Below, one piece after another: positions 10,040-25,597 of a stretch of DNA of 64,000 nt. Positions within the stretch are counted from its first letter, which is position 1; every line of letters begins with the position of its first letter. Position numbers and translations under genes: made by a program. Under the pieces are notes generated by a model, which saw nothing but the letters and a program-made list of their open reading frames with translations, was not told the DNA's origin and did no database searches. Source of the stretch: Ruania alba (GTDB lineage Bacteria > Actinomycetota > Actinomycetes > Actinomycetales > Beutenbergiaceae); the NCBI RefSeq assembly GCF_900105765.1, contig NZ_FNTX01000002.1, positions 2,046,001 through 2,110,000 of the forward strand, in the 5' to 3' direction.

Positions 10040-11125
10040 GTGGCTCTTACTATTGGTATCGCTGGCCTGCCCAACGTGGGCAAGTCCACCCTGTTCAACG
10101 CGCTCACCCGCGCCACCGCTCTCGCGGCGAACTATCCGTTCGCCACGATCGAGCCGAATGTGGGGGTGGTGCCGTTGTCGGACGAGCGGTTGGGCACGCT
10201 GGCGGAGATCTTCGCCAGCGAGAAGATCCTGCCGGCCACCGTCTCGTTCGTGGACATCGCCGGTATCGTCAAGGGCGCGAGCGAGGGGGAGGGGCTCGGC
10301 AACAAGTTCCTCGCGAACATCCGCGAGGCAGACGCGATCTGCCAGGTGACCCGCGCCTTCGCCGACCCCGACGTGGTGCACGTGGACGGCAAGGTCTCGC
10401 CGAAGGACGACATCGAGACCATCAACACCGAGCTGATCCTCGCGGACATGCAGACCTTGGAGAAGGCTCTGCCGCGGCTGGAGAAGGAGGTCCGCGGGAA
10501 GAAGACCGAGCAGGCCGTGCTGGACACGGCCCAGGGTGCGCTGGCGTTGCTCGAGGCGGGCACGACGATCGCGGCCGGCGGTGCGGCGGCCGGACTCGAC
10601 CCGGAGATCGTCCGGCAGTTCTCCCTGCTGACGGCCAAGCCGTTCATCTACGTCTTCAACACCGACGACGACGGCCTGGCGGACGAGGCGATGCAGGCTG
10701 AACTGCGTGAGCTGGTGGCCCCGGCGCAGGCGATCTTCCTGGACGCGAAGTTCGAGGCGGAGCTGGTGGAGCTGGAACCGGACGAGGCCGCTGAGATGCT
10801 CGCCGAGTCCGGTCAGGACGAGTCCGGGATGGATCAGCTTGCCCGCGTCGGGTTCGACACCCTCGGGTTGCAGACCTACCTCACCGCCGGCCCGAAGGAA
10901 TCGCGGGCCTGGACCATCGGCAAGGGGTGGACCGCCCCGCAGGCCGCTGGGGTGATCCACACCGACTTCGAACGCGGATTCATCAAGGCTGAGGTGGTCT
11001 CCTTCGATGACCTCGTGGCCGCCGGCTCGATGGCCGAGGCGAAGTCGCGCGGGCGGGTGCGGATCGAGGGCAAGGACTATGTGATGGCCGACGGCGACGT
11101 GGTGGAGTTCCGCTTCAACGTGTGA
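10040..11125 (+). CDS. ychF: redox-regulated ATPase YchF (Obg family)
   Basis: Universally conserved ribosome-associated ATPase/GTPase YchF, 361 residues, full length. It begins at a GTG with LTIGIAGLPNVGKSTLFNAL (G1), then FATIEPNVGVV, VDIAGIVKGASEGEGLGNKF (G3 and switch region), and NTDD in place of NKxD as the G4 motif, typical of YchF's ATP preference. The C-terminal TGS domain ends ADGDVVEFRFNV. The final 25-33 bases are repeated several times downstream, which marks this 3' end as the anchor of the accessory island that follows. Because those repeats preserve the coding sequence, ychF itself stays intact. Confidence 0.96.
   Translation: MALTIGIAGLPNVGKSTLFNALTRATALAANYPFATIEPNVGVVPLSDERLGTLAEIFASEKILPATVSFVDIAGIVKGASEGEGLGNKFLANIREADAICQVTRAFADPDVVHVDGKVSPKDDIETINTELILADMQTLEKALPRLEKEVRGKKTEQAVLDTAQGALALLEAGTTIAAGGAAAGLDPEIVRQFSLLTAKPFIYVFNTDDDGLADEAMQAELRELVAPAQAIFLDAKFEAELVELEPDEAAEMLAESGQDESGMDQLARVGFDTLGLQTYLTAGPKESRAWTIGKGWTAPQAAGVIHTDFERGFIKAEVVSFDDLVAAGSMAEAKSRGRVRIEGKDYVMADGDVVEFRFNV
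11093..11125 (+). repeat. ychF 3'-end repeat R1 (genuine gene end, putative attachment site)
   Basis: This is the reference copy of the island repeat: the last 33 bases of ychF, encoding GDVVEFRFNV and stop. The core shared by most copies includes GAGTTCCGCTTCAACGTGTG. Sequence similarity to the other copies stops at or just after the stop codon, so the repeat is a short site and not a duplicated gene end of arbitrary length. Confidence 0.9.
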
Positions 11126-13489: not shown

Positions 13490-13522
13490 GGCGACGTGGT
13501 GGAGTTCCGGTTTAACGTCTAG
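13490..13522 (+). repeat. ychF 3'-end repeat R2 (synonymously diverged)
   Basis: 33 bases matching the end of ychF and still encoding GDVVEFRFNV plus a stop, but with CGG TTT for CGC TTC and GTC TAG for GTG TGA. All differences are silent or a change of stop codon. This is what one expects if the copy derives from the ychF end of another species and arrived with a mobile element, rather than by local duplication. Confidence 0.85.
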
Positions 13523-13555: not shown

Positions 13556-13938
13556 GTGATCAGATCGTTCGGGAGCAGGGACACCGAGCGGATCTGGCGC
13601 GAGCAGTACGTCAGAGGCGTTGATCGGCTGGTGCAGCGCGCGACCTTGCGGAAGCTTGATCCGATCCATCCGGGAGAGAGCCTGATGGAGGACGTCATCG
13701 AGGGCTACGGATCACGCAGAACAAGCTGGCCGTCTCGATCCGCGTGCCGCTGCGGCGGATCAGCGAGATCGTGCACGGCGAGCGGGGAATTACCGCTGAC
13801 ACGGCGATCCGCCTGGCGCGATACTTCGGGACGTCCGAGGAGCTCTGGACGAACCGGTAGTCGAACTACGAGCTGCGGCTGGAACGTCGCACGCTGCACG
13901 ACACGGTCGCTGCGACCAGTCCGCTGAAGGTCGCGTGA
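13556..13938 (+). pseudogene. fused remnant of a HigB-HigA type toxin-antitoxin pair
   Basis: The first part translates as VIRSFGSRDTERIWREQYV and LVQRATLRKL, the N-terminus of a RelE/HigB-family toxin. At LRKL the frame passes directly into the antitoxin (LRKLDPIHPGESLMEDVIEG), so the C-terminal half of the toxin and the intergenic region are missing. LRKL occurs in both proteins and may be the deletion joint. The HigA helix-turn-helix (ITQNKLAVSIRVPLRRISEI, ITADTAIRLARYFGTSEELW) continues only after a one-base frameshift near 13719, and a TAG at about 13858 interrupts it before SNYELRLERR. It begins 33 bp after repeat R2. Assignment rests on remembered family sequences. Confidence 0.8.
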
Positions 13939-14047: not shown

Positions 14048-14686
14048 TCATTTCGGGAAGTCGACGTCGCCGTCCTCATCCGCCGATTCGAGGGCGCGCC
14101 GTCGCCGAGAACGACGCGCTTCAGCAATCCCGGCGATGATGTTCCACAGAGCGTATGCGAACAGGCCTCCGGCCCCGATTCCCACGATCCACCCGCGGTG
14201 TTCCCCATTCACCACATTGTTGACCCAGCCCAGGTACGGGATCGAGTACGCCACCCGTCCCTGGACCTGGACCGAACGGACCGGATCAGGGTCGGGGTCG
14301 GCGTTGTTGTCCCCCTGCGTGATGAAGCGCGGACCGTCCTCGTCGGGGCTCGCCACTCCGACCACGCGATGGGTGATGACCTCCGGTTCACCGGACCGGA
14401 TCTGATATGTGATCACGTCGCCGACGGCGATCTCGTCCACGTCCACGGGGAACACGACGATCAGTGTCCCTGGAGGCGCCGCCGGACTCATGGAATTGGT
14501 GAGCACGGTCAAGGGAACTCCGCCGCCGAGCCTCGGGATCACCAGTGCGAATGTCGCGAGCGCGACGACGCCGAGCGCGAGGGCGATGCTGAGGACGAGT
14601 GCCACCCAACGCAGCGCGCCGCGGAGTCCGTCCCGTCTTTGCTTCGCCGCGGCGTGCTCTCGTCGGGCCCGTCGGGTCAGGTGCAC
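14048..14686 (-). CDS. SipW-type signal peptidase I
   Basis: Membrane serine protease of about 212 residues related to Bacillus SipW and archaeal/ER signal peptidases, expected to cleave signal peptides of TasA/CalY-like fibre proteins outside the membrane. One N-terminal helix (about residues 26-52) precedes the catalytic serine in VLTNSMSPAAPPG (Ser65). The second catalytic residue is His106 in EVITHRVVGV, where bacterial LepB enzymes have Lys, so this is the Ser-His subtype. GDNNADPDPDPV is the conserved box after it, and a second helix near the C-terminus precedes an acidic tail. I choose a GTG start that overlaps the upstream LAYTG gene by 10 bp. Last gene of the fibre operon. Confidence 0.88.
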   Translation of the reverse strand: MHLTRRARREHAAAKQRRDGLRGALRWVALVLSIALALGVVALATFALVIPRLGGGVPLTVLTNSMSPAAPPGTLIVVFPVDVDEIAVGDVITYQIRSGEPEVITHRVVGVASPDEDGPRFITQGDNNADPDPDPVRSVQVQGRVAYSIPYLGWVNNVVNGEHRGWIVGIGAGGLFAYALWNIIAGIAEARRSRRRRALESADEDGDVDFPK

Positions 14687-15390
14687 GAACTGTCTCGCCG
14701 ACGGCGCTTGCGCACGAGAACCATCGTCGACGCTCCGGTCAGCACCAGTGCCGCTCCGATCACCAGGGCTGTGAATGGCACGTCTGTGCCGGTGTAGGCG
14801 AGGTGATCCTCGTCCTGGTCGGGCGGATCTGAGCCGAGCACAGGGAAATCCCTGCCCCGCTCGCACCTCTCCGGCCATGGCGCACCCGCCGCCGTGTCGC
14901 GGATCGACGCTGTGAGCGAGAACCGAACCGTCTCCTGCTGCGCAACTTCGGCAGGGACGTCACGAAGCCCGACGCTCAGATCGATGCGCACGGACTCGCC
15001 ACTGGCCAACTCGAGTGTCGGAACCACGACGGAACAGGGTGTCAGTTCGTCTGCGGTCGCCGTCGTCTCGTCTCCCGTGCGAGCTTCACGTGATGTGATC
15101 TCGAAGTTCTGTGCAAGCTCGGGTGAGGACAGTTCGATGTCGTCGACGACGACACGCAGTTCGCCGTCGACCTCGGAATCGTTCCGCAGCCACACGCTGC
15201 GGGTTTCGCTCCCCTGCGGCACCAATGCCGGGGGGTGCACGAACACCGGGCGGTCTGTCTCGGCGGCGTAGGTGGTGCCGTCCAAGCTGATGAGGAGCTC
15301 GTCGTCGGTGACGGCTGTGGCGGGCGATGCTACGAGACTCGCCGCCGTTGCGAGCATCATTGCCGTACCGAAGAAGTGCCTGAAGTTCAT
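14677..15390 (-). CDS. secreted protein with LAYTG cell-wall sorting signal
   Basis: 237-residue surface protein. It has a signal peptide (MNFRHFFGTAMMLATAAS, cut near residue 26), a beta-rich extracellular domain of about 160 residues with two cysteines in SVV and ERCERG regions, and a C-terminal sorting signal: LAYTG at 197-201, a hydrophobic helix, and the basic tail RKRRRR. LAxTG is the motif favoured by actinobacterial class E sortases; no sortase is seen in this window, so a housekeeping enzyme would have to act. The gene lies between the DUF11 adhesin and SipW, overlapping both, and probably supplies the wall anchor of the fibre system. Confidence 0.85.
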   Translation of the reverse strand: MNFRHFFGTAMMLATAASLVASPATAVTDDELLISLDGTTYAAETDRPVFVHPPALVPQGSETRSVWLRNDSEVDGELRVVVDDIELSSPELAQNFEITSREARTGDETTATADELTPCSVVVPTLELASGESVRIDLSVGLRDVPAEVAQQETVRFSLTASIRDTAAGAPWPERCERGRDFPVLGSDPPDQDEDHLAYTGTDVPFTALVIGAALVLTGASTMVLVRKRRRRDSSCT

Positions 15391-17225
15391 GGCACCGTCA
15401 CATTCACCTGGTGTGACCATTCGGAGAACCGACCTCCGTCGTCGACGGCCCGCACCTGAAAGGAGTGGTCACCCTCCGGGGTGCCGGTCACGGTGTACGA
15501 CGTGGCGGTGCCGTTCACGGTCCCCACCTCTGTCGTGCCGTTGCGCCGGATCTGGTATCCGTCGATGCCGGATGCTGCGGTGGACGGGTCCCAGGTGAGC
15601 GGCACGTCCGTGGACGTCACCTGACCGTTGGTCCGGAGGTCTGACGGAGTCGTCGGTGCCATGGAAACGGTGGCGTCGTATGCGAGGCTGTTGTTGTTGC
15701 TCCCGGTGTCGGCAGTCGTTCCGCTCAGAGCGGCATCCACTGTCATGGTGCGGGGGTCCTCCTCCGCGGTGAAACTGGAGGGAATCGTTCCCGAGACCCA
15801 GAAGCGTCTGGTCTCTCCCGAAGGAATGTCCCCCAGGGGGCAGGTCGCGGACGAACCGTCGAGGGTGCACTCCACCGGGCTGGTGCCGGCGTCGTTCGAT
15901 GTCGAGTACTGCACGTGGACGTCGGTGAGTTCCGAGGGAATCGACAACGTCGCCGACGAATCCGTCGCCGGATCCGGTCCATTGTTGGTTCCGCGGAAGG
16001 TCCAGGTCGCAGTCCGCCCAGCTGTGGCATTCAGCGGCGTGGTCAGGGCGGATACGGAGAGGTCGGCATTCGAAGCCTCCGAGTCCACCTGTCCACTCGA
16101 CTCCTCCATCGGTGGGCTCGACGCCTCCACCTCGATCGGGGCGTTCGTCGGGTCCGCGTCAATCGACCAGTCCGGCGCAAGCTGGCTCGCGGTACTGACC
16201 TGTGGCTGATAGTCGATCGTCGATCCTGCTGCACTGGACTGGATCGTGGCGTCGAACGTGACAGTGATCGTTGAGTCCGGGAAGATCCGGCCGGCCGGGA
16301 TCTGATTCAGTGGCCGGTCGCCGATCGGCGCGGTGATCTCCCGGGTCGCGGAGTCGTAGGTCGCCGTCGACGCGCCGGTCTGATCATCCTTCTCGGGGTC
16401 GGTGATCTCCAACGTCCCCGGAACGAGCTCGAGCGAGGGCGGCAGTGTGTACGCGTACGACGTACCGACCCCCGGCGCGTCGCCGGTGTTCGTGATGGTC
16501 GTCGCGTATCGAACGCGATCACCGGGGACATAGCTTCCGCTCGTGCCGCCGACCTCCGTCACCGTCGACGACGAGTCCAGGCACGGACCCACACCGAAGG
16601 CGACCGCATCCATGAGGTTCCCGGCGTCATGGTTGTTCCCCGATATGGACCGAATACTGATCGTCGTGGACGTCTGGCCCGGCGGCACGACGTACGCGCC
16701 GGAATGCACTAGCCACTTCCGCGACGTGTTGTTCGAATAATAGTCGCCCTGGGACACCATGGAGCCCGGGACTCCAATCGAGACGCGAACCGTCTCTGTC
16801 CACGAATGTCCCCTGTGGTAGAACGACCAGCCGAGGGTCTCGCCAGGTGTCGTCTCGATCGTCTGCGAGATCGTTCCCCTCGTGGTCGAGTTGAGTTCGA
16901 TCAGCTGCTCGCCGTGCGGCGCGTACCGAGTGTAGTTGCTCGGATATGGCGTGTTCCAGATCTCACCCGGAATCGTATTTCCGGATGCATCCGTCCAAGT
17001 CCACGAGGTCGGCGTTGTGTGCGACCAGCTGCCGTCGCCGACTTCCGGCGACTCGAAGCCGCCGTTGGCCAGCCCTTGTCTGCCGCAACCGCTCACGTCG
17101 CCAACGCGCACGTCGCCCGCGATCGTGGCGTCGACGTTCCACAGAGCCGCTGTTGGGGTCAGCAACCCGAGCACAGTGAAGGTGGTGAGGGCAGTGACGG
17201 CGAACTGCATGGTTCTTCTGCTCAT
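15387..17225 (-). CDS. large secreted adhesin: carbohydrate-binding-like, DUF11 and fibronectin III domains
   Basis: 612-residue exported protein. After a signal peptide (MSRRTMQFAVTALTTFTVLG) comes a galactose-binding-like module of the type beginning GLANGGFESPEVGDGSW (about residues 45-225). Two DUF11 repeats follow, around residues 230-370 (VPGDRVRYATTITNTGDAPG) and 395-515 (ADLSVSALTTPLNATAGRTA), then a fibronectin type III domain at 525-612 (PSDLRTNGQVTSTDVPLTWD). It has no wall anchor of its own, and overlaps the LAYTG gene by 4 bp, so the two are coupled. The FWNDS/LWNV style start of the mature region matches the neighbouring TasA-like proteins, suggesting the same signal peptidase. 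Confidence 0.85.
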   Translation of the reverse strand: MSRRTMQFAVTALTTFTVLGLLTPTAALWNVDATIAGDVRVGDVSGCGRQGLANGGFESPEVGDGSWSHTTPTSWTWTDASGNTIPGEIWNTPYPSNYTRYAPHGEQLIELNSTTRGTISQTIETTPGETLGWSFYHRGHSWTETVRVSIGVPGSMVSQGDYYSNNTSRKWLVHSGAYVVPPGQTSTTISIRSISGNNHDAGNLMDAVAFGVGPCLDSSSTVTEVGGTSGSYVPGDRVRYATTITNTGDAPGVGTSYAYTLPPSLELVPGTLEITDPEKDDQTGASTATYDSATREITAPIGDRPLNQIPAGRIFPDSTITVTFDATIQSSAAGSTIDYQPQVSTASQLAPDWSIDADPTNAPIEVEASSPPMEESSGQVDSEASNADLSVSALTTPLNATAGRTATWTFRGTNNGPDPATDSSATLSIPSELTDVHVQYSTSNDAGTSPVECTLDGSSATCPLGDIPSGETRRFWVSGTIPSSFTAEEDPRTMTVDAALSGTTADTGSNNNSLAYDATVSMAPTTPSDLRTNGQVTSTDVPLTWDPSTAASGIDGYQIRRNGTTEVGTVNGTATSYTVTGTPEGDHSFQVRAVDDGGRFSEWSHQVNVTVP

Positions 17226-17800
17226 GGTCGCACCTGCTCTCCAGTGAGAGTGAGGGTGATGACCGCTGTCGCTTCTCGCACGGATGCCGGGGCGGACTCG
17301 TCCAGTCTCACCTCGAGACAGAGTTCGTCGGTTTCACCAGGGTCGAGGGACAGTGGGCTCAACGTAGTCGGAAGCGCCGTGCCTCGAGGCGTCGTCGTGC
17401 ACGTCGTCCCCGTTGCCGGACGCAGTGAGACGATCGCACTCGACGCGAAATCTCCGTTCGAACTCTCGACGGTGGTCCCTTCCCAGTTCACTGAGAGCGG
17501 GACGGAACCCTCGTTCGCGATGGTCACAGGAGTACTGCGGACGACCGACCCGCCCGGATACAACCCTGCGAAATCCAGGTCGTCGACTGTGAGGGCCGTC
17601 TTCTCGTCGAGCGTCATCTCGATGGATCCCGTGTTCACGTTCGTCGCGTCGGCGGTGACCGAGTCGTTCCAGAACGCGTAGGTCCCACCGGTGGCGGCGG
17701 CGCCCACGACAAGACCTGCCGCAACCATGGCGGTCGTGGTGAGAATGGCACGGACCGGTCGTCCGCGTCGGCGTGGGTCACTCCGGGGCGTGGACCGCAT
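17222..17800 (-). CDS. TasA/CalY-like fibre protein with SipW-dependent signal
   Basis: About 192 residues. A basic leader and hydrophobic segment (AMVAAGLVVGAAATGG) are followed directly by TYAFWNDSVTADATNVNTGS, the pattern of SipW-processed biofilm matrix and camelysin-like proteins. The remaining sequence is beta-rich (VTIANEGSVPLSVNWEG). I take the ATG, although a GTG one codon upstream is equally in frame; a GGGGAG ribosome-binding sequence lies just upstream. It overlaps the adhesin start by 4 bp and follows the second TasA-like gene after a 100 bp gap, so subunits, adhesin, anchor protein and peptidase appear co-expressed. Confidence 0.85.
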   Translation of the reverse strand: MRSTPRSDPRRRGRPVRAILTTTAMVAAGLVVGAAATGGTYAFWNDSVTADATNVNTGSIEMTLDEKTALTVDDLDFAGLYPGGSVVRSTPVTIANEGSVPLSVNWEGTTVESSNGDFASSAIVSLRPATGTTCTTTPRGTALPTTLSPLSLDPGETDELCLEVRLDESAPASVREATAVITLTLTGEQVRP

Positions 17801-17899
17801 CACCTGCTCCCCTCGAATCGTCGGCCACCGGCCGACCTGTTCTCCCGGTTGGTTTCGGTCCTCGGGTCGACGCTCCGGAGACCGTTGCCATCTAGCGGT

Positions 17900-18502
17900 T
17901 TAGGGGCGCACCTGGGTGAGGTCGAAAGCGAGTTCGTCCAGGTCGACCGCGTCGTCGACTTCCTCGCCGTAGGAATCATTGGCGCCGGTCTCCTCGTCCC
18001 CATCGAAGGTGATGGTGACCATGCCGGAGAAGGTGATCGTGGTTCCCGGGTCGTAATCGGAGTTCGGGTCGATCTCGTACGTGGTCGCATTGACCTCGGT
18101 GATCGTCGCAGAGGTCGTGCCGACCGAGTTCAGCTCGAGCTCGACCGTCACATGATCGGAGACTCCCTGCGCGATCGTGTACGAATCGGGATCGATCTGG
18201 AGCTGGGCCCGGAGGTTCTTGCCCCAGGCCGTGACCGTGAACTCCTGTTCGAAGGTGATGACATCCCCTGGAACGATCGAGTCGGTGGTGGGATCGAACG
18301 CAGTGTCGTTCTCGTCGACGTCCGGCGATGCGTCGGTCCACTGCTCCGAATCCGCTACCAGGGCGAGATCGAGATTACCGGTCGAAACCGTGCCTCCCTC
18401 GGCCGTCACGCTCTCGCTCCACAACGCGAACGTACCCGCGCCGCCCAGTAGCAGCGCGACACCGGCGCCACCGGCGATCGAGCCCTTGACGATTCTGTTC
18501 AC
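17900..18502 (-). CDS. TasA/CalY-like fibre protein with alternate-type signal peptide
   Basis: About 200 residues, first gene of the fibre operon. The start is the GTG at 18502 (VNRIVKGSIAGGAGVALLLG), preceded by AAGGGGGAT as ribosome-binding site; the longer upstream frame is rejected. The signal region ends GAGTFALWSESVTAEGGTVS, which matches the SipW-dependent pattern seen in the next gene. The mature part is acidic and beta-rich, typical of a secreted structural subunit (VTVELELNSVGTTSATITEV). Probably the major or first-assembled subunit. Confidence 0.85.
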   Translation of the reverse strand: MNRIVKGSIAGGAGVALLLGGAGTFALWSESVTAEGGTVSTGNLDLALVADSEQWTDASPDVDENDTAFDPTTDSIVPGDVITFEQEFTVTAWGKNLRAQLQIDPDSYTIAQGVSDHVTVELELNSVGTTSATITEVNATTYEIDPNSDYDPGTTITFSGMVTITFDGDEETGANDSYGEEVDDAVDLDELAFDLTQVRP

Positions 18503-19258: not shown

Positions 19259-19283
19259 GGTGGAGTTCCGCTTCAACGTGTGA
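19259..19283 (+). repeat. ychF 3'-end repeat R3
   Basis: 25 bases identical to the last 25 bases of ychF, including GAGTTCCGCTTCAACGTGTG. It follows a non-ychF sequence on the left (AATGC) and lies 43 bp from the stop of the SDR gene on the right. Confidence 0.88.
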
Positions 19284-24812: not shown

Positions 24813-24839
24813 GCGGTGGCGTTCCGCTTCAACGTGTGA
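24813..24839 (+). repeat. ychF 3'-end repeat R6 (right-most copy)
   Basis: 27 bases matching R3 with a single mismatch (GTGGCG for GTGGAG); translation would read AVAFRFNV and stop. It is the last copy I could find and so may mark the right-hand end of the repeat-bounded island. The DUF4303 gene stops 11 bp beyond it. Confidence 0.85.
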
Positions 24840-24850
24840 CCGTTGCCGCG

Positions 24851-25351
24851 TCACGCACCCTCGGCCGCTTCGGCCAGCCAAGCGTCGAGCAGCGGCCCAG
24901 CCGGGTTGAGGCGTCGGGCGAATCCTGCATCGCTCTCGTCTGGCGGCATCGTCGCCACCACAAGCAGTATGCGGGCGCGCTCGACACCTGTGCCGAAGAG
25001 TCCGGTCTCATCGAGTCTGCGTAGGGCCGCCTCCATCGACGTCAGCCGACGCCAGTACTCCTCCTCCGCATCTGGGACGTCCATGTCGTGGAGTTGTCCG
25101 CGCGCGGTGAACTCCACGTCCGTTCGGGCGAGGATCTCGTCCGCGACCAATGCGTAGGGGCTGTCGGCCAGATCCCATCGGGATTTACCGTGCACAGTCG
25201 CGGTGAGGTAGGGGCGATACGCCTCGCCCGAGGTGACGAGCGCGTAGACGCAGAAGTCCGCTCGATGTTCGGAGCGGAGCCGTCGGATCGCCTCGTCCGT
25301 GGCCTCGGCGATCGCATCGACCAATGCGGGTATCGGATCGCTCGCGACCAT
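24851..25351 (-). CDS. DUF4303 domain protein
   Basis: 166 residues from MVASDPIPALVDAIAEATDE. The sequence IRRLRSEHRADFCVYALVTS followed by SPYALVADEILA is the N-terminal pattern of DUF4303 proteins, which often sit near polymorphic-toxin or SUKH genes. No enzymatic motif is visible. The gene ends 11 bp from repeat R6 and may belong to the accreted material even though no repeat copy follows it. Confidence 0.65.
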   Translation of the reverse strand: MVASDPIPALVDAIAEATDEAIRRLRSEHRADFCVYALVTSGEAYRPYLTATVHGKSRWDLADSPYALVADEILARTDVEFTARGQLHDMDVPDAEEEYWRRLTSMEAALRRLDETGLFGTGVERARILLVVATMPPDESDAGFARRLNPAGPLLDAWLAEAAEGA

Positions 25352-25597
25352 GATTTGATCCCCCGGGTTCGACGCTTGGTCAGAGAGCACTCTGACGTCT
25401 CTGTTCTCCATACCGTCGCCCGTCGACGGTGGAAGATGGCGGTGCGTGCCGCAGCGTCGCCCGACTGCACGCCGAGCACGCGGGCTCCGTTCATTCGATC
25501 GGGAGCCGGGACAGGCTGGCCGGAACTGTGTCGCACGTCAATCTGTCAGTTCGTGTCGTCACGATGAGGTAGAGATGCCGGCTGTGAGGACTGTGCC

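Follow-up and report, generated by a model that had tools for sequence, protein, structure and literature searches.

Detailed knowledge of TasA-class fibres comes from Bacillus and archaea. The members of this class in Actinomycetota go by the catalogue name 'alternate-type signal peptide domain' protein, which no paper in the literature searched was found to use. TasA polymerises via an N-terminal donor strand, with the first strand coming from TapA, which nucleates TasA (PMC9674648, PMC10151520). Here we analyse a stretch of 64,000 nucleotides from the genome of Ruania alba (hereafter the window) that carries a locus of five genes at positions 14048-18502. We put at about two in three the probability that this locus is a SipW-dependent donor-strand fibre module of the TasA/camelysin class which came from a Microbacteriaceae-like lineage and constitutes one segment of a ychF 3'-end cassette array. 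The five-gene kit probably builds a sticky protein fibre on the cell wall.

Gene layout and export signals

All five minus-strand open reading frames of the original prediction are present, with the ends given there. Gene 1 (17900-18502) encodes a camelysin/TasA-like subunit of 200 amino acids from the TIGR04089 (exp_by_SipW_III) family, identified by this profile together with AlphaFold and Foldseek, and gene 2 (17222-17800) a second camelysin-like SipW-type subunit of 192 amino acids, identified by Peptidase_M73, TIGR04088, Foldseek and hhalign. Gene 3 (15387-17225) encodes a 612-residue adhesin which combines a SipW-type signal and donor-like N-terminus with a choice-of-anchor-C/DUF642-like region, DUF11 and FnIII. 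Gene 4 (14677-15390) codes for an LAYTG-anchored wall protein of 237 amino acids with an ordinary signal peptide and a beta-sandwich-like ectodomain, and gene 5 (14048-14686), for which we infer a GTG start at 14686, for a SipW-type (ER/archaeal, Ser-His-Asp) signal peptidase I of about 212 amino acids. Gene 1 lies upstream and ends 99 bases before gene 2; the overlaps measure 4 bases for genes 2 and 3 and for genes 3 and 4, and 10 bases for genes 4 and 5, and genes 2-5 therefore look translationally coupled. The original prediction of five overlapping genes accordingly holds for these four, with gene 1 standing apart. Within the five-gene locus there is no sortase gene. A search for RNA or riboswitch control of the operon gave zero Rfam matches across the whole window, and scans for sigma-70 promoters and terminators returned site numbers not above those in shuffles.

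The identities expected for the five products, namely two small secreted proteins, a DUF11/FnIII adhesin, an LAYTG protein and a Ser-His peptidase, were all recovered, but the SipW-type signal is found on three of these proteins and not on two. With a hidden Markov model of SipW-type N-termini that was built with the window's own proteins left out, gene 2 scored 22.9 bits, the adhesin 10.6 bits and the LAYTG protein -1.0 bits. No shuffle of the adhesin N-terminus out of 4000 reached 10.6 bits. Of 1120 background proteins, 20 did so, and their N-termini, as far as they were listed, are SipW-type and belong to these same operons. TIGR04088 gave no match to the adhesin N-terminus. The N-terminal motifs of genes 1-3 (FALWSES, YAFWNDS and AALWNVD, respectively) have A-x-W-N/S in common, and in each of the three proteins the tryptophan is located two residues past the predicted cleavage site. 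Ordinary signal peptidase I is hindered by an aromatic residue at P2', and the enzyme that cleaves TasA is SipW (PMC10269814). The presence of a SipW-type N-terminus in the adhesin and its absence from the LAYTG protein point to three SipW substrates and one anchor protein secreted by the ordinary route.

Among the domains of gene 3, DUF11 (40.3 bits; cut-off 24.6) and fn3 (36.3 bits; cut-off 25) were matched above threshold, and choice_anch_C (33.6 bits) below the cut-off of that model. Gene 4 gave a borderline score of 26.9 bits with the LAVTG anchor domain, just under the cut-off of 27, and direct reading of its C-terminus revealed LAYTG, a hydrophobic stretch and then RKRRRR. The genome encodes a class E sortase (NF033747, 263.8 bits; cut-off 160) at position 911113 of contig C2 of genome G000, and LAXTG is the motif recognised by this class of enzymes (PMC5148588). 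Gene 5 matched TIGR02228 with 85.2 bits (cut-off 51.85) and the Bacillus SipW equivalog model NF046067 with 70.5 bits, short of the cut-off of 190, and in an alignment of six peptidases the catalytic S, H and D, found in the motifs SM, THR and GD, are invariant. Judged by these residues and scores, gene 5 is SipW-like in mode, with a Ser-His pair and not Ser-Lys, but is not the Bacillus equivalog.

Small subunits and the proposed fibre

Gene 1 scored 135.1 bits against TIGR04089 (cut-off 60), 26.8 bits against TIGR04088 (cut-off 19) and 10.6 bits against Pfam Peptidase_M73 (camelysin), which is below the cut-off of 22.5; gene 2 scored 22.2 bits against TIGR04088 and 28.9 bits against Peptidase_M73, above both cut-offs. 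The families of genes 1 and 2 are homologous according to hhalign (96.7%), and the similarity between the families of gene 2 and the anchor is weaker (75.8%) and might stem from a common beta-sandwich. Single-chain AlphaFold predictions, with input alignments of 40 sequences for gene 1 and 17 for gene 2, yielded all-beta models with a pLDDT of 80 for gene 1 (80-96 in most core blocks) and 63 for gene 2 (about 80 in the core); the N-termini of both monomer models are of low confidence, as expected but not diagnostic. When 350,542 PDB chains were searched with Foldseek, the model of gene 1 retrieved the TasA fibre 8aur at rank 1 (probability 0.99, E 3.4e-3) and the archaeal bundling pilin AbpA (7ueg) at rank 5, and the model of gene 2 retrieved AbpA 7ueg at rank 1 (probability 1.00, E 2.9e-4). 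Chaperone-usher pilins were also found among the Foldseek matches of gene 2 and in a second look with VIA. Furthermore, comparison of the gene 2 profile with PDB sequences gave AbpX and TasA as the top matches, both sub-threshold. These results support a resemblance of both predicted structures to donor-strand fibre subunits, in agreement with the TasA-like or donor-strand fold that had been anticipated for the two small proteins. However, the Foldseek TM-scores are low (0.31-0.37) with a large rmsd for both models, and in VIA all Z values were under 8 and many beta-sandwich proteins appeared, with TasA and AbpA scoring no better than unrelated ones, so that the fold class is supported but TasA identity is not proven.

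When the genome collection was scanned for members of the gene 1 family, at least 75 loci were detected, a sample whose counts depend on the threshold. Among the loci listed, 70 of the 75 have a SipW-type peptidase gene on the same strand at a distance of up to 6.5 kb, 49 have a gene 2 relative and 41 an anchor relative, and the order gene 1-gene 2-anchor-peptidase occurs in 12, all 12 from Microbacteriaceae. Several related loci hold a large SipW-type protein in the slot of gene 3. This protein carries FnIII and a ricin-type lectin region in L020, L021, L031, L042 and L047, with lectin scores near or below the cut-off in L031 and L047; in L062, the lectin protein is placed after the anchor. 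The full order together with a big protein in the third slot is clearest in L020, L031, L042 and L047. Because the domains of gene 3 differ from those of its counterparts in the same slot, the end piece appears to be replaceable within an otherwise conserved set. The five-gene layout is not unique to Ruania alba, and the adhesin and anchor, which had been regarded as a special addition, recur in the same order, with an exchangeable third protein, in several Microbacteriaceae.

One alternative, which we consider rather unlikely, is that single beta-sandwich proteins exported by SipW coat the wall without polymerising and that the adhesin works alone. Not only are the structural matches weak in TM-score and Z and spread over many unrelated beta-sandwich proteins, as such a coat would allow, but the Pfam name of the family is that of a metallo-endopeptidase, camelysin. 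It is countered by the identity of the top Foldseek matches of both subunits, which are known donor-strand fibres singled out from the entire set of chains, by the conservation of the TasA-like A-x-aromatic N-terminal pattern, and by the fact that the peptidase, the anchor and two homologous subunits stay together in many loci.

The reading of the locus as a fibre is well supported, and its polymerisation can be proposed by analogy with the described systems. The gene 5 peptidase would cleave the signal peptides of genes 1-3, and each N-terminal strand freed in this way would occupy the groove of the subunit that follows. Gene 1 would be the rod, that is, the major subunit, and gene 2 a minor, adaptor or second subunit, both of them donor and acceptor at once, by analogy with TasA and TapA. 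In gene 3, the donor-like strand is joined to an otherwise unrelated adhesin of several domains; this product would therefore be a donor-only end piece that caps the fibre and contributes binding domains. Gene 4, which takes the ordinary signal route and has a beta-sandwich, no SipW-type N-terminus and LAYTG, would serve as an acceptor-only base that the class E sortase of the genome attaches to the wall.

The roles could also be reversed, so that the adhesin, linked to the wall or released, is the functional product and genes 1 and 2 are its export chaperones or strand donors, similar to TapA or CapP. TapA indeed carries a donor strand and nucleates TasA (PMC10151520), and the set contains no large binding protein other than gene 3. 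Nevertheless, we deem this arrangement distinctly unlikely, given that gene 3 lacks an anchor motif of its own and that many related loci encode the small subunits and the peptidase with no recognised lectin or adhesin in the third slot.

The ychF 3'-end array and the origin of the module

The module is located between two copies of the 3' end of ychF, as the original prediction had it. The ychF gene itself (10040-11125, plus strand), with an intact 3' end, is the site of the array, and its terminal copy is repeat R1 (11102-11125). R2 (GTGGAGTTCCGGTTTAACGTCTAG; 13499-13522, plus strand) forms the left edge of the module segment, and R3 (19260-19283, plus strand), the core of which is identical to the ychF end, forms the right edge. 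Altogether, the window contains five copies on the same strand, starting at 11102, 13499, 19260, 20857 and 24816, compared with 0.00 expected from shuffles, and these tandem copies separate gene sets of 1.6-5.8 kb. A conserved sequence precedes many ychF-end copies. The half-site before the core matches at 25 of 26 positions in R4 and at 16 of 26 in R5; R2 matches at 14 of 26, with 0.3% of positions being as good, and R3 at 11 of 26, with 5.9% as good, which is not above chance.

Directly after R2, there is a decayed remnant of a higBA toxin-antitoxin pair (13556-13935, plus strand), detected with tblastn, which aligns with the intact copies of L095 (HigB, E 1e-18; HigA, E 3e-41) and contains a frameshift and a stop. 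Several further actinobacterial genomes have intact-looking higBA genes directly behind the GGTTTAACGTCTAG variant of the repeat, and the same stretch is also matched by a Nocardia farcinica record. Plasmid matches cover only R2 and higBA and the phage search was empty, and carriage of the module by a plasmid or phage was rejected. The segment at R5 (24816-25411), with a DUF4303 gene and a flanking repeat, is shared with another Ruania genome (G002, at the distal end of L017).

Of 149 genomes sampled from the order, about 20 contain similar arrays with different cargo and a shared half-site before the core. In other Ruania and in many Actinomycetales, ychF-end copies number two to four, mostly within a few kb, and the cargo between them varies; open reading frames read directly include VapBC-, HigBA- and SUKH-like genes and a DUF4303 gene. 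Near the other SipW loci (L019-L093), the search for ychF repeats gave only coincidental matches with three mismatches.

The only tyrosine recombinases of this genome are two, encoded on the other contig and probably XerC and XerD, and no large serine recombinase (PF07508) was found in it; a resident integrase of either type was therefore rejected. Elsewhere, a PF07508 large serine recombinase domain (73.7 bits) lies beside ychF-end repeats in L110 (genome G123), and a sub-threshold resolvase fragment adjoins such repeats in L095 (genome G147); both are candidates for the recombinase of the array.

In the peptidase tree, the window copy groups on a long branch with 40 Microbacteriaceae sequences (support 92/83), and the other Ruania copies group with Georgenia or Nocardioides; forcing the window peptidase to join the Ruania/Georgenia-type copies costs 77 log units and is rejected by the AU test (p 2.5e-6). 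The five module genes have a GC3 of 0.74-0.83 versus 0.88-0.93 in four flanking genes. The adhesin is found only here among eight Ruania genomes, being absent from the other seven. A locus in the core genome of the genus at this place, which the original prediction had named as an outcome that would contradict it, was thus rejected. Most of the sampled Ruania have a different SipW module in another place.

Ruania alba itself encodes a second SipW module (L113, 3650-6775; contig C2 of G000, about 729650-732775) that consists of a peptidase, SipW-type proteins and an LPxTG-like protein. This different module lies beside an ino1-like gene in five Ruania genomes (L113-L116 and L016) and keeps the same place in at least five genomes of the genus. 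A third SipW-type set is a two-gene pair (L117, 2598-4963; contig C1 of G000, about 1635100-1637460) whose peptidase continues into a long C-terminal extension (561 amino acids). Other accessory SipW modules were detected in three Ruania genomes.

That the locus is a resident of the lineage which merely sits beside ychF-like repeats, and was not imported, appears very improbable. The repertoire of integrase-type genes in this genome, limited to the two probable XerC/XerD recombinases, is compatible with residence. The number of repeat copies relative to chance, the lack of the adhesin in the other Ruania, the foreign position of the peptidase and the different gene sets that other genomes hold between ychF-end repeats all argue against it. 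The flanking repeats, the lower GC3 and the foreign phylogeny all fit gain of the module in one step, as initially proposed, but given the array setting without a large serine recombinase in this genome, arrival as one cassette is a reasonable inference and not a demonstration; one-step gain is plausible but unproven. A more general scheme appears doubtful to us. In it, a donor-strand pilus kit of Gram-positive bacteria, with its own signal peptidase, an acceptor-only base anchored by sortase E and interchangeable donor-only tips that bind sugars, would be widespread in Microbacteriaceae and could travel as a single cassette in the recombinase-less ychF 3'-end arrays of Actinomycetales, mobilised in trans.

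Comparison with described fibres and related modules

Fibre kits of this type are widespread but little studied in the relatives of Ruania alba, and among SipW/TasA-class fibre loci the present one is ordinary in kind and unusual in its completeness and location. A donor-strand fibre set this compact, with five genes that include an adhesive end piece and a wall anchor, would be a tractable model of the way in which a Gram-positive bacterium starts, tips and anchors such a fibre. In addition, because it lies in a ychF-end array, the idea that an entire surface fibre spreads horizontally can be tested directly.

The closest counterparts in gene order are the loci of Cryobacterium psychrotolerans (L020), Cryobacterium sp. 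Y57 (L031) and a Microbacteriaceae metagenome-assembled genome (L042), which share the succession of a TIGR04089 protein, a second subunit, a large SipW-type protein, an anchor and a peptidase, but differ in that their large protein combines FnIII with a ricin-type lectin and ychF repeats are absent nearby. The other SipW modules of Ruania (L013/L014 and the ino1-linked modules) similarly combine a SipW-type peptidase with SipW-type proteins and usually an LPxTG-like anchor, but differ from the window module in gene order and peptidase lineage. With the tapA-sipW-tasA operon of Bacillus subtilis, the locus has in common a dedicated SipW-type peptidase, a TasA-like subunit with A-x-aromatic after the cleavage site and an accessory protein with a donor-like N-terminus; the Ruania locus, from a different phylum, is distinguished by two camelysin-like subunits, a multi-domain adhesin and a sortase-anchored protein. 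The sipW-calY1-bc_1280-calY2 locus of Bacillus cereus (TasA/CalY with CapP) likewise includes two camelysins, an accessory protein and SipW, but this system has been described as sortase-independent (PMC13082335), whereas in Ruania the LAYTG protein is encoded together with the fibre genes. The bundling pili of Pyrobaculum calidifontis, formed by AbpA, the top structural match of gene 2, also consist of donor-strand subunits; they are archaeal, and the Ruania locus adds a dedicated SipW-type peptidase, an adhesin and a wall anchor. Finally, type 1 and P chaperone-usher pili follow the same donor-strand logic and bear a sugar-binding end piece, but the Ruania locus is Gram-positive and, in place of a chaperone and usher, has a dedicated signal peptidase and a sortase anchor.
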